In this document: positions 980 through 14,071 of the stretch, one piece after another
Layout of the letters: each line of letters opens with the position of its first letter
How positions within the stretch are numbered: the stretch's first letter is position 1
Origin: a virus
Direction: 5' to 3' (one strand)
DNA: 20,220 nucleotides
IMG/VR virus record: IMGVR_UViG_3300018421_000298
Span: 1-20,220 of that record
Translations under genes and position numbers: made by a program
The notes under the pieces: generated by a model
Databases searched by the model: none
What the model saw: the letters and a program-made list of their open reading frames with translations, nothing else
Told to the model about the DNA's origin: nothing

Positions 980-1792
980 ATGGCAACGATAGCTAAAACG
1001 AAACAGCCGGTGCGTATGCCACGGTTCGGGCATCGGGTCGATAAGACTGATCCGATCCTGCGTGGGTGCGCGGGCTGGTGGCCTCTGAATGATGGGGCTG
1101 GGACGAAGGCTACAGACCTGTCCACGGGTGGTAATGATGGAACGCAAAGCGGTGGTGTATCGTGGGCGAGTACAGAGAAAGGCACTGCTGCAAGTTTTGA
1201 TGGGACGGATGATTATATTGACATTGTTGGTGCTCCAGCAGACACAATCACACAGCCGCTAACGTTAAGTGCGTGGGTTTATAACGACGCAGGCGGTTCA
1301 GGCACCAACGACCTTGTTGCACTTGGGGATACGACAAGCGTAAATCCCCTCGGGATTATTAGATTTACTTACAGTTCGGGGCAGGTTTCAGCGGTTTTTC
1401 GTGCTGGATCCACAGCCTCAATAATTAGCCACACACTGTCAAATCCAACAGGAAATTGGAATCACATATGCGTTGTGGCTACCTCTTCAACGTCGCTCGA
1501 ACTTTTTGTCGATGGCGTTTCAGTCGCTTCAGATACATCGACGAATTATGGAACGTTATCATATGACAACCTAACCATCGGGGCTTTGCAAAGGACAACT
1601 CTTTTGAATTACTCAGACGGTGGGGTTCAGAACGTTCGAGCCTACGACCGAGCCTTATCAGCCACCGAAGTCTCCCGCCTCTATAACGAACCATGGGCAG
1701 GCTTAGAACCGCTGTCACCGTTTTCGTTCTTTAGTGGGTTGTCCCAAATATACGCATATTACTCCGCTGCTTTTTTGCAGCGTCTAGGATAA
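980..1792 (+). CDS. LamG/concanavalin A-like lectin-domain protein, likely adhesin or fibre component
   Basis: This encodes 270 residues. ATG 980 is preferred over the in-frame GTG at 968, which lies inside the previous gene. After a basic N-terminal stretch comes a phrase typical of phage LamG proteins (L-R-G-C-A-G-W-W-P-L-N-D-G-A-G, about residues 27-41). The jelly-roll core covers about 70-250: ASFDGTDDYIDI, LTLSAWVY, the NWNHICVVATSSTSLELFVDGV region and NVRAYDRALSATEVSRLYNEP. These are the hallmarks of the LamG_3/concanavalin A-like fold, which binds carbohydrates or forms trimeric fibre parts. It is probably a surface-exposed virion protein for host recognition. Its stop (TAA 1790-1792) abuts the HNH gene. 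There is no signal peptide, consistent with a phage structural protein. The fold is confident; the ligand is unknown. Confidence 0.85.
   Translation: MATIAKTKQPVRMPRFGHRVDKTDPILRGCAGWWPLNDGAGTKATDLSTGGNDGTQSGGVSWASTEKGTAASFDGTDDYIDIVGAPADTITQPLTLSAWVYNDAGGSGTNDLVALGDTTSVNPLGIIRFTYSSGQVSAVFRAGSTASIISHTLSNPTGNWNHICVVATSSTSLELFVDGVSVASDTSTNYGTLSYDNLTIGALQRTTLLNYSDGGVQNVRAYDRALSATEVSRLYNEPWAGLEPLSPFSFFSGLSQIYAYYSAAFLQRLG
1765..1782 (+). promoter_or_regulatory. Stem-loop at the LamG/HNH junction
   Basis: The sequence shows a perfect six-base inverted repeat, CGCTGC and GCAGCG, around a loop of six T. It lies inside the last codons of the LamG gene and 15 bases before the likely HNH start at 1798. 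It could limit read-through or hide the HNH ribosome site (AGGA at 1786-1789). There is no T tract after the second arm, so it is not a standard terminator. The arms are short and coding, so chance is possible. Confidence 0.3.
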
Positions 1793-11460: not shown

Positions 11461-11877
11461 ATGGCAGATACTGGAAATTCAGCCACGATTGCTTTCGGAA
11501 CGAGTTCATTCGTCGCCAATATTTACTCAATCGGTGGAACGTCACAATCCCGCGAGGCTCTCGAAGACAGCCACTTGGGAACCACGAACCAAAAGACGTA
11601 CATCCCAACCGACTTGTATGAGCCTGGCGAGTTTGAAATTGAGTTCGAATGGGATCAATCATTTTCCGTTTTCCCTCCGATTGATGGGGCTGCTGAGACG
11701 ATTACGGTGACTTTCCCATTGAAGTCTGGTGAGGGTACGGCAGCTACGTTGGCTGGGTCTGGATTCATCACTGAGGTTTCTGGCCCTGATGTTGAGAATG
11801 GAAGCATCATGCGGGGGACTGCTACCATCAAGTGGGATGGTAAAACTGAAGTGGCATATACGGCTGGGAGTGTATAA
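11461..11877 (+). CDS. Major tail tube protein
   Basis: This encodes 138 residues; the ATG follows GAGG at about 11450-11453. The beta-rich sequence, with R-E-A-L-E-D-S-H-L-G-T-T-N-Q-K-T-Y-I-P (31-49), L-Y-E-P-G-E-F-E-I-E-F-E-W (52-64) and a late S-I-M-R-G-T-A-T-I-K-W-D-G, is the usual pattern of siphovirus tail tube subunits that stack as hexamers. It is shorter than the lambda tube protein, lacking an added Ig-like domain. Its place after the tail completion gene and before the chaperone pair is canonical. It overlaps the next gene by TAATG. Confidence 0.85.
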   Translation: MADTGNSATIAFGTSSFVANIYSIGGTSQSREALEDSHLGTTNQKTYIPTDLYEPGEFEIEFEWDQSFSVFPPIDGAAETITVTFPLKSGEGTAATLAGSGFITEVSGPDVENGSIMRGTATIKWDGKTEVAYTAGSV

Positions 11878-12143
11878 TGTTTGAGTTTGTTTTGAAGGAC
11901 CACCCACACAAAGTGACTGTCCACGGCCAAAAGGTTCAGGCAATCACGGATGTAAAATTAATTGCTGTCCGCGAAGAGGGTAGTGATAAGTTTGTCCAGT
12001 GTGGCTACTGCGGGGCAAAACCGGGAATGCCAATCACGTTGATTAAGCATTACCCTCAAGTGTTTATGGATGCTGTCGAGAAATTTGTAGAAGAAGAGGT
12101 GGGTAGTGTCACGCGAGTGTCCTGCCCACCTAAAGGGAGGTAA
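11877..12143 (+). CDS. Small CxxC protein between tail tube and chaperone
   Basis: This encodes 88 residues, starting on the tube gene stop (TAATG). It has one C-G-Y-C-G knuckle at about residues 42-46 and a single further Cys near the C-terminus in V-S-C-P-P-K-G. That is too few for a classical Cys4 zinc site in one chain unless it dimerises or uses His (residues 9, 11, 16 and 58 are candidates). The rest alternates short strands and one helix (V-F-M-D-A-V-E-K-F-V-E-E-E). I do not recognise the family. The place in the operon suggests a tail assembly factor or minor virion part, by inference only. Confidence 0.75.
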   Translation: MFEFVLKDHPHKVTVHGQKVQAITDVKLIAVREEGSDKFVQCGYCGAKPGMPITLIKHYPQVFMDAVEKFVEEEVGSVTRVSCPPKGR

Positions 12144-12145
12144 AT

Positions 12146-12484
12146 ATGGACTATAAAGCAAAGTTACTTGAGTCGACGAAAAAGAAAATCTCGAAGGTGT
12201 ACGTCAAATCGCTCGACACGGAGTTCAATATAAAGCCACTGTCCGCGAAGCAGCTAAATGATTACATGCAAGCCGTAGAAAACGGAATCGGCAATGTGCA
12301 AGCGACAATCAGTCTGCTTGCATTATGTATTGTTGATGATAACGGCGACCGTGTTTTCAAGACAAGAGAAGACGTTGAGATGTTAGAGGAGATTGAACTC
12401 AGTGTACTTCTCGTCCTCACTGACGCCTGTCAAAGGATCTCTGGTCTTGCTGAAGACCTACAGGAAGATTTGAGAAAAAACTAA
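12146..12484 (+). CDS. Tail assembly chaperone, short product (gpG-like)
   Basis: This encodes 112 residues in the zero frame. An excellent ribosome site (AGGGAGG, about 12134-12140) precedes the ATG. The protein is small, acidic and helical (L-S-A-K-Q-L-N-D-Y-M-Q-A-V and V-E-M-L-E-E-I-E-L-S-V-L-L-V-L-T-D-A), as is usual for the lambda gpG-type chaperone that keeps the tape measure soluble before tube assembly. It lies directly between the tube and tape measure genes. Its last sense codons contain the slippery heptamer A AAA AAC, so a fraction of ribosomes should shift and make the longer form described separately. Confidence 0.9.
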   Translation: MDYKAKLLESTKKKISKVYVKSLDTEFNIKPLSAKQLNDYMQAVENGIGNVQATISLLALCIVDDNGDRVFKTREDVEMLEEIELSVLLVLTDACQRISGLAEDLQEDLRKN

Positions 12485-12687
12485 AACGCAGTCCATCTCG
12501 GAGAGCCGCTTTCATTTTGGCCAGGGAGTTGGGCTATGTCGATGTCAACGGCATGCTCGACTCCATTAGCGGGGAACTCTTTATGGAATGGGTCATGTTC
12601 CTTGGGATGGACGGCAAAGAATCGAATATGAAGTCCGTACAGGAATTTGAAGATCAAATAAGAGGGTCTTATGGCGGTAATCGGTGA
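12146..12687 (+). CDS. Tail assembly chaperone, frameshifted long product (gpGT-like)
   Basis: Read 12146-12481 in the zero frame, then from 12481 in the -1 frame to TGA at 12685-12687, giving about 180 residues. The added part begins L-K-R-S-P-S-R-R-A-A-F-I and continues with L-A-R-E-L-G-Y-V-D-V, M-L-D-S-I-S and L-F-M-E-W-V-M-F-L. This has the pattern of lambda T-like domains (a helix with R-E-L-G, then an E-W-x-x-[FY]-[FL] motif). It has no good start codon of its own, so it is best explained as the frameshift extension. It overlaps the tape measure start by 17 bases. The long form would bind both tape measure and tube subunits during tail assembly. The shift rate cannot be judged. Confidence 0.87.
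12475..12481 (+). promoter_or_regulatory. -1 ribosomal frameshift slippery site A AAA AAC
   Basis: In the zero frame the heptamer reads A|AAA|AAC, one codon before TAA 12482-12484. It has the X XXY YYZ form that lets the P- and A-site tRNAs re-pair after a one-base slip. In the -1 frame the sequence stays open for 68 codons to TGA 12685-12687. Its position at the end of the chaperone gene and before the tape measure is the conserved place for this event in long-tailed phages. No convincing downstream pseudoknot was found by eye. Confidence 0.88.
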
Positions 12688-14071
12688 ACTAGCAGTCAAT
12701 GTTGTGGCGAGGACATCCGGCTTAACTAGTGGGATGAATCGTGCAAGGAAAGAGATGGGGATTCTCTCCAGTGCTGCACTCGGAGTCAGAAGATCATTGC
12801 TTGCCTTGGGTGCTGCATTTACGGCATTCGAGGGCATTAAAACCATGGCTAGGTTAGCGGCTGAAGCGGAGCAGGTCATTACCCAATTCGAGGTAATGAC
12901 TGGCAGCATAGAGACGGCTAACAACCTATATAGTGAACTTCGGACCTTAGCGGCAGGCACCCCATTACAACTGGAAGGGTTGCTAGGCAATGCCAGAACC
13001 CTGATGCTGTTCGGTGAATCAGCAGACACTGCAACCAAGACACTACGCATGCTTGGTGATGTGTCTGGTGGTAACCAGACTAACCTGAAGTTCATGGTCC
13101 GGGCCTTCGGTCAGATCAGCAGTCTTGGACGGTTGCAAGCACAGGACTTAATGCAGTTGGTGAATGCTGGGTGGAACCCTCTTGAACAGATCATGAAAAA
13201 ATCTGGCGAGACGATGACAGAGGTTCGCGAGAGGATGAAGGATGGGAAGGTTAGTGCTGATGAGGTGCGAGAGGCACTAGAGTCCGCAACTGGCCCTGGT
13301 GGACGATTTAACGGCATGATGGAAAAGATGTCCAAGACGATGTCTGGGCGGTGGTCCACATTGATCGATAACATCAAGCAGCTTGCGGTCCAGTTTGGCG
13401 AGATCCTAATGCCTGTCTTCGAGAAGGCGGTATCATTCCTGTCGAAACTTGTCAACTGGTTCAAGGGGCTAAGTGCTGAAACCAAAAAACTTATAGCCAC
13501 AGGAATCTTCTCTCTATTCTCTAGTTGGCTTGCAGGGAAAGGGTTTGATGCTATCCTTGGGATGTCCGGCCTTGGGGGCGTAACTGACATGCTAGGCAAG
13601 GGGGCTGGTAAGGCTGGGTTGCTGGTCACAGCGATTACCAAAGTCGCTGGAATATTTGCCAGGCTTACTGGTGGACTTGTTGGTGCTAGTTTGTTTGCAA
13701 AGTTAATGAAAGAATCTGCGGACTCTTCCGCACAAATCATTGACAATACATTGCAGTATGAACAAGTGATAAGAAACATACAAAGACGACGTGAGAAAGA
13801 ACACGCAGTTCAAATACGTTCATTCTCAGCACCTCGACAATCTCGGTTTACGCCAACCCCCTGGAAGGATGCTGACAACTTAATGATGAGTGCGAACGTC
13901 AAAACAATAGAAGCAATCACAGCTCAGGAGGCACAAAAGCGCAGGATGGAAGAGACTAGGAACAAAGTTCTTGAAGCGATACATACGGAAAACAAAGATA
14001 TGAAACTGAGCTTGAGGTTTATTGCTAGTAAAACTAAACGGTCAGACATTAAGCAGGCGGCACCATTCTAA
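12671..14071 (+). CDS. Tape measure protein, short form
   Basis: This encodes 466 residues; AGAGGG (12661-12666) precedes the ATG. Residues about 60-240 match the tape measure N-terminal domain: F-E-V-M-T-G-S (73-79), L-R-T-L-A-A-G-T-P-L-Q-L-E-G-L (90-104), L-M-L-F-G, L-R-M-L-G-D-V-S, G-R-L-Q-A-Q-D-L-M-Q-L (153-163), G-K-V-S-A-D-E-V (192-199) and S-G-R-W-S-T-L-I-D-N-I (225-235). Residues about 275-345 are hydrophobic and glycine-rich, possible membrane-active segments for DNA entry. The C-terminal third is helical and charged. At the usual ratio of tape length to tail length (about 1.5 angstroms per residue) the tail would be roughly 70 nm, shorter than lambda. It ends on the next ATG. Confidence 0.92.
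   Translation: MAVIGELAVNVVARTSGLTSGMNRARKEMGILSSAALGVRRSLLALGAAFTAFEGIKTMARLAAEAEQVITQFEVMTGSIETANNLYSELRTLAAGTPLQLEGLLGNARTLMLFGESADTATKTLRMLGDVSGGNQTNLKFMVRAFGQISSLGRLQAQDLMQLVNAGWNPLEQIMKKSGETMTEVRERMKDGKVSADEVREALESATGPGGRFNGMMEKMSKTMSGRWSTLIDNIKQLAVQFGEILMPVFEKAVSFLSKLVNWFKGLSAETKKLIATGIFSLFSSWLAGKGFDAILGMSGLGGVTDMLGKGAGKAGLLVTAITKVAGIFARLTGGLVGASLFAKLMKESADSSAQIIDNTLQYEQVIRNIQRRREKEHAVQIRSFSAPRQSRFTPTPWKDADNLMMSANVKTIEAITAQEAQKRRMEETRNKVLEAIHTENKDMKLSLRFIASKTKRSDIKQAAPF

Follow-up and report, generated by a model that had tools for sequence, protein, structure and literature searches.

A putative G/GT-type programmed -1 frameshift at an A AAA AAC site, with a predicted 3' RNA element, in the tail module of an uncultivated phage

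A G/GT frameshift at the tail chaperone locus of long-tailed phages is textbook knowledge. In the stretch of viral DNA analyzed here (20,220 nt, referred to as the window), a 112-codon open reading frame (ORF) ends on A AAA AAC, and the -1 frame is open behind it. Does this locus encode a G/GT pair, and what would set the ratio of the two products? We assign a probability of about 0.94 to the reading that it represents a programmed -1 ribosomal frameshift of the G/GT type, within the tail module of a long-tailed phage.

The chaperone gene, its neighbors, and the slippery site

The 0-frame ORF (positions 12146 to 12484, plus strand) is preceded by the Shine-Dalgarno (SD) sequence AGGGAGG at about 12134 to 12140. 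Its 112-aa product matched the tail assembly chaperone family phrog_344 over the full length (E value of 1.7e-15), and phrog_344 was also matched by all 14 aligned G members. The Pfam match to Phage_TAC_13 (E value of 1.4e-4) was under the Pfam cut-off. When the G family profile was compared with PDB sequences, it matched the HK97 chaperone gp13 (2ob9; E value of 1.1e-5), and when the window protein was modeled with AlphaFold2 (mean pLDDT of 76), the same entry was the top structural match (E value of 6.5e-4; TM score of 0.57 to 0.60). We conclude that the ORF encodes a tail assembly chaperone, the G type proposed in a first-pass annotation of this DNA, with a predicted fold nearest to that of HK97 gp13.

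The gene order expected for a tail chaperone locus (major tail protein, G, T, tape measure protein) was confirmed, with one additional 88-aa ORF between the major tail protein gene and G. The major tail protein, with which the T domain is expected to pair, is encoded at 11461 to 11877 (plus strand; phrog_158, E value of 7.4e-6). The tape measure gene (12671 to 14071, plus strand) was identified by PF20155 (TMP_3; E value of 7.2e-27) and phrog_9959 (E value of 7.5e-46), and its first 17 nt are shared with the end of T. At 466 aa, the tape measure protein is short, which would suggest a short tail; its gene adjoins an unusually short T domain. The 88-aa ORF (11877 to 12143, plus strand) contains a CxxC motif and has a subthreshold match to a zinc-binding family (PF24623; E value of 0.031). 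We take an antisense ORF of 204 aa (12481 to 13095) to be a shadow of the tape measure gene.

Direct reading of the DNA located the heptamer A AAA AAC at 12475 to 12481 (plus strand) in the phase of G (A12475, AAA at 12476 to 12478, and AAC at 12479 to 12481). In the frame of the ORF starting at 12146, the surrounding stretch (12470 to 12487, TTGAGAAAAAACTAAAAC) is split as AGA AAA AAC TAA, which matches the X XXY YYZ pattern of a tandem -1 slip and leaves the stop (TAA, 12482 to 12484, plus strand) adjoining the heptamer. The stop is placed in the same way in L003 to L005 and L060 (TAA) and in L041 to L049 (TGA), and in most other relatives the 0-frame stop lies several codons past the heptamer. 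The T-like extension (12481 to 12687, plus strand) runs from CTA at 12481 for 68 codons in the -1 frame to TGA at 12685 to 12687, and this frame is open upstream as far as 12454. Phase, coordinates, and length of the extension thus agreed with the first-pass annotation. The same annotation described the interval between 12484 and 12671 as otherwise empty. A TTG-started ORF (12517 to 12687) is, however, on the mechanical ORF list.

How readily would such an arrangement arise by chance? Shuffling the codons of the 112-codon G gene produced any X XXY YYZ heptamer in phase within the last ten codons in 3.7% of the shuffles, and for AAAAAAC in particular the share fell to 0.28% within that region and to 0.025% as the final 7 nt. 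The bare AAAAAAC string showed no enrichment in the window (4 occurrences seen, 3.6 expected). Under a dinucleotide model, an open run of 68 codons has a chance probability of 3.8% and, taken alone, is weak evidence. The decisive evidence for the observation is its conservation among relatives.

Elsewhere in the window, T TTT TTG is found in phase at 1771 to 1777 (plus strand), four codons ahead of the stop of an ORF with a LamG domain (968 to 1792). The -1 frame behind it is open for 205 codons and corresponds to the next ORF (1792 to 2394), which has its own ATG and a weak NinG-like match. This site could be a second frameshift or a product of chance.

Conservation of the heptamer and selection on the -1 frame

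Relatives of the extension were collected by scanning viral contigs with the T alignment, which yielded the 49 distinct contigs used for all junction counts. In 45 of them, A AAA AAC was present in the correct phase at the G/T junction. In two others (L044 and L055; junction near base 1501) it is replaced by C CCT TTC in phase, and the remaining two T-domain relatives, L038 and L039, have no X XXY YYZ heptamer near the junction, which again lies close to base 1501; we count these four against the frameshift reading. The heptamer was kept down to about 27% identity in the T domain and about 15% in the G domain, and the G alignment has just two invariant columns, K111 and N112, for which AAA AAC is the coding sequence. 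As positive controls, the same scan recovered the lambda heptamer G GGA AAG and, adjoining the stop, the heptamer G GGA AAC of Streptomyces phage Dubu, a phage annotated with a joined chaperone gene. The earlier remark that A AAA AAC is less common at this locus was not supported: within the T family of the window it is the rule rather than a rarity, and it was already known at the tail chaperones of other phages.

The identity of the extension was established through its relatives, which are 91 to 27% identical to it. Of 16 aligned T domains, 10 matched Phage_tail_T (PF06223; best E value of 3.8e-10) and 12 matched the tail protein family phrog_337. Furthermore, the T alignment matched phage lambda T in an hhalign comparison (E value of 1.3e-5; probability of 81%), in line with the lambda T-like domain recognized in the first-pass annotation. 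The window copy alone passed no family threshold in Pfam or PHROG (phrog_39, E value of 0.029) because it is short and divergent, and its T identity therefore rests on the relatives. Its 68 aa compare with about 93 to 176 aa in most of them. A search of genome contigs found no relative of the extension, and tblastn searches of isolated phages with G and T gave weak matches only.

To see whether the extension changes as a protein does, we compared the window with the relative L003. In the G gene, 56 synonymous and 7 nonsynonymous codon differences were counted. In the extension, the -1 frame showed 15 synonymous and 6 nonsynonymous differences (5, 2, and 19 differences at the first, second, and third codon positions), whereas the other two frames gave 3 and 19 and 1 and 21, respectively. 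This contrast indicates that the -1 frame encodes a protein under selection.

Such a protein could also be the product of a separate small gene, translated from an internal start such as TTG at 12517 or, by reinitiation after the G stop, from a weak start. This TTG is in frame and has GGAGAG 5' of it. However, the nearest distinct relative (L003/L031) has CTA in its place, and the conserved T residues L1, P5, and R7 lie upstream of the candidate starts in the window. Moreover, no start codon is common to the heads of the -1 frames among the family loci: candidate starts differ in place, and in six loci (L040, L043, L050, L053, L056, and L065) none was found within the first 20 codons of the extension, which argues against a separately started T gene. 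A separate gene would also leave the conserved in-phase heptamer unexplained, and we regard it as very improbable. The core T domains of the AAAAAAC loci contained no stops either, so that these loci share neither of the features, an intact -1 start or stops, that the first-pass annotation had named as speaking against a frameshift.

Slippage of RNA polymerase on the A run, rather than of the ribosome, would shift some mRNAs to the -1 frame. The site does contain six consecutive A residues, and bacterial RNA polymerase can slip on homopolymers, with possible help from a nascent hairpin (PMC5009743). On the other hand, most relatives have A6 and the others A7, which is short compared with the A9/T9 runs for which efficient bacterial slippage was described (PMC5009743), and conservation extends to the C that follows the A residues and to the X XXY YYZ phase, neither of which slippage needs. 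We give transcriptional slippage an equally small chance. That the -1 frame is untranslated, with the heptamer and the open frame due to chance or to a decayed gene, is the least credible explanation: a 68-codon open run alone is expected at about 4% by chance, but both the protein-type selection and the family-wide conservation contradict this reading.

Predicted RNA structure downstream of the heptamer

Folding predictions placed an outer stem of 11 bp, a putative stimulator of frameshifting, 6 nt past the heptamer, with its 5' arm at 12488 to 12499 and its 3' arm at 12604 to 12615 (both on the plus strand). This stem closes a branched domain of about 128 nt, which includes a predicted inner hairpin at 12525 to 12564 (plus strand). 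The 6-nt spacer fits the heptamer-to-structure distance of 5 to 9 nt expected for such elements. The outer stem was present in the window and in L003/L031, with pair probabilities near 1 for nearly all pairs in both; it is common to only these two distinct sequences, and other clades use different stems. Both arms are identical in the window and L003 despite synonymous divergence (18 of 140 aligned positions differ), which leaves no pair changes in which covariation could show. Of the inner hairpin, a lower stem of about 10 bp is kept in L003 (one C-G pair is changed to U-G), and the upper stem is re-paired.

Across the family, folding at this position was also in excess on average. Folds of 60 nt starting at +6 had a mean z of -1.95 over 18 representatives relative to dinucleotide shuffles, and folds at least 100 bases upstream or downstream of the site had a z of about 0 in the same set. 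With synonymous codon shuffles, which preserve the protein, the Stouffer z was -5.6 for 60 nt and -8.4 for 140 nt, values that presume independent representatives, an assumption that holds only approximately. For the window itself, a 60-nt fold at +6 was unremarkable (z of 0.1 relative to dinucleotide shuffles) and the signal appeared only at 90 to 140 nt; the 140-nt fold had a z of -3.3, and 0 of 300 synonymous codon shuffles folded as strongly. The corresponding 140-nt values were -5.5 for L003/L031 and -6.5 for L004/L032, and in L004 a compact hairpin (-39.6 kcal/mol) follows the heptamer at almost the spacing of the window stem. Excess folding was absent in several relatives (L034, L040, L051, and L056). 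These predictions suggest that an RNA fold past the heptamer probably raises the frameshift rate. We lean slightly toward the view that a dedicated 3' RNA element sets the chaperone frameshift in this family and that its position is conserved while its architecture is not: a branched 128-nt domain closed by a long-range 11-bp stem in the window clade versus a compact hairpin (about -40 kcal/mol) in a sister clade.

We also considered a 5' stimulator. An SD-like stretch of acidic codons (CAGGAAGA; 12456 to 12474, plus strand) is located about 10 nt ahead of the heptamer and is common in relatives. An SD-like affinity of -4 kcal/mol or lower was found upstream of the heptamer in 78% of cases, compared with 28% of control windows. 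This enrichment is due to conserved Glu and Asp codons; it did not exceed synonymous codon choice (z of -0.8), and a selected SD stimulator of the dnaX type was therefore rejected.

The predicted structure also bears on reporter design. An insert spanning 12440 to 12560, as proposed in the first-pass annotation, ends short of the 3' arm and would cut the predicted structure, and so it may underreport frameshifting. As for detection at the protein level, the junction of the putative GT protein would give the tripeptide NLK with trypsin and DLRKNLKRSPSRRAAFILARE with Glu-C, according to the sequence, and AAFILAR would be a T peptide.

Proposed mechanism and comparison with known systems

In the frameshift model, the majority of ribosomes would stop at the TAA at 12482 and release the 112-aa chaperone G. 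In a minority, tRNA-Lys and tRNA-Asn would re-pair from AAA-AAC to AAA-AAA, and translation would resume at CTA (12481) to yield a GT protein of 180 aa; the folded RNA element six bases past the heptamer probably lifts the rate of this event. The lambda model has G attached to the tape measure protein, while the less abundant GT uses its T domain to bring in the major tail protein (PMC5009743). By analogy, G and GT of the window phage would have these same two roles. The long product would be both made and needed for tails.

A possible objection is that the site is weak, since A_AAA_AAC is less shift-prone than A_AAA_AAG in Escherichia coli (PMC5009743). This is tempered by the expectation that the GT product is rare: a weaker heptamer suits a low GT:G ratio, and it may explain why a structural stimulator would be needed. 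For two HK97-like chaperone cases, a survey of prokaryotic frame transitions gave 6 to 7% frameshifting in a reporter (PMC3711429).

The locus resembles lambda G/GT in lying between the genes for the major tail protein and the tape measure protein, in having a -1 heptamer near the end of G, in its T domain of the same family (the hhalign match above), and in the overlap of T with the tape measure start. It differs in the heptamer (G GGA AAG in lambda), in the stop directly after it, in the length of T (68 aa versus 144 aa in lambda), and in the predicted long stem-loop domain downstream. Dubu gp13/gp14 is related to the wider T family (it was matched with the L010 T domain); its chaperone coding sequence is annotated as joined and, as in the window, has the heptamer directly ahead of the stop (G GGA AAC TGA); its heptamer is different, its T is longer, and the sequence similarity is remote only. 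AAAAAAC itself was reported for the chaperone gene that precedes the tape measure gene in phiCbK-like phages (PMC3556154), for the tail chaperones of Loki and IME_AB3 (PMC5313236), and for that of the archaeal virus HCTV-2 (PMC5009743). In Acinetobacter phage Loki it immediately adjoins the stop, as in the window (PMC5313236). The phiCbK-like phages and Loki are likened here from published descriptions, not by sequence comparison. Outside phage tails, E. coli dnaX and cassettes of the IS911/IS3411 type share an A-rich heptamer followed within a few bases by a 3' RNA structure, which is a three-way junction in IS911 and a distant pairing element in IS3411 (PMC5009743). These are different genes, however, and dnaX uses A AAA AAG together with a 5' SD sequence.

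Apart from the RNA element, the locus is an ordinary case of an established mechanism, and the additions are modest: A AAA AAC as the rule of a family, an unusually short T, and a predicted stimulatory RNA domain. The G/GT ratio helps to set correct tail assembly. Annotation often overlooks T extensions, and a confirmed case therefore puts right the gene map of this group of uncultivated phages. A functional RNA element would show how a stimulator can be invented anew among related phages that retain the slip site, and simple reporters could then test what controls the G:GT ratio.
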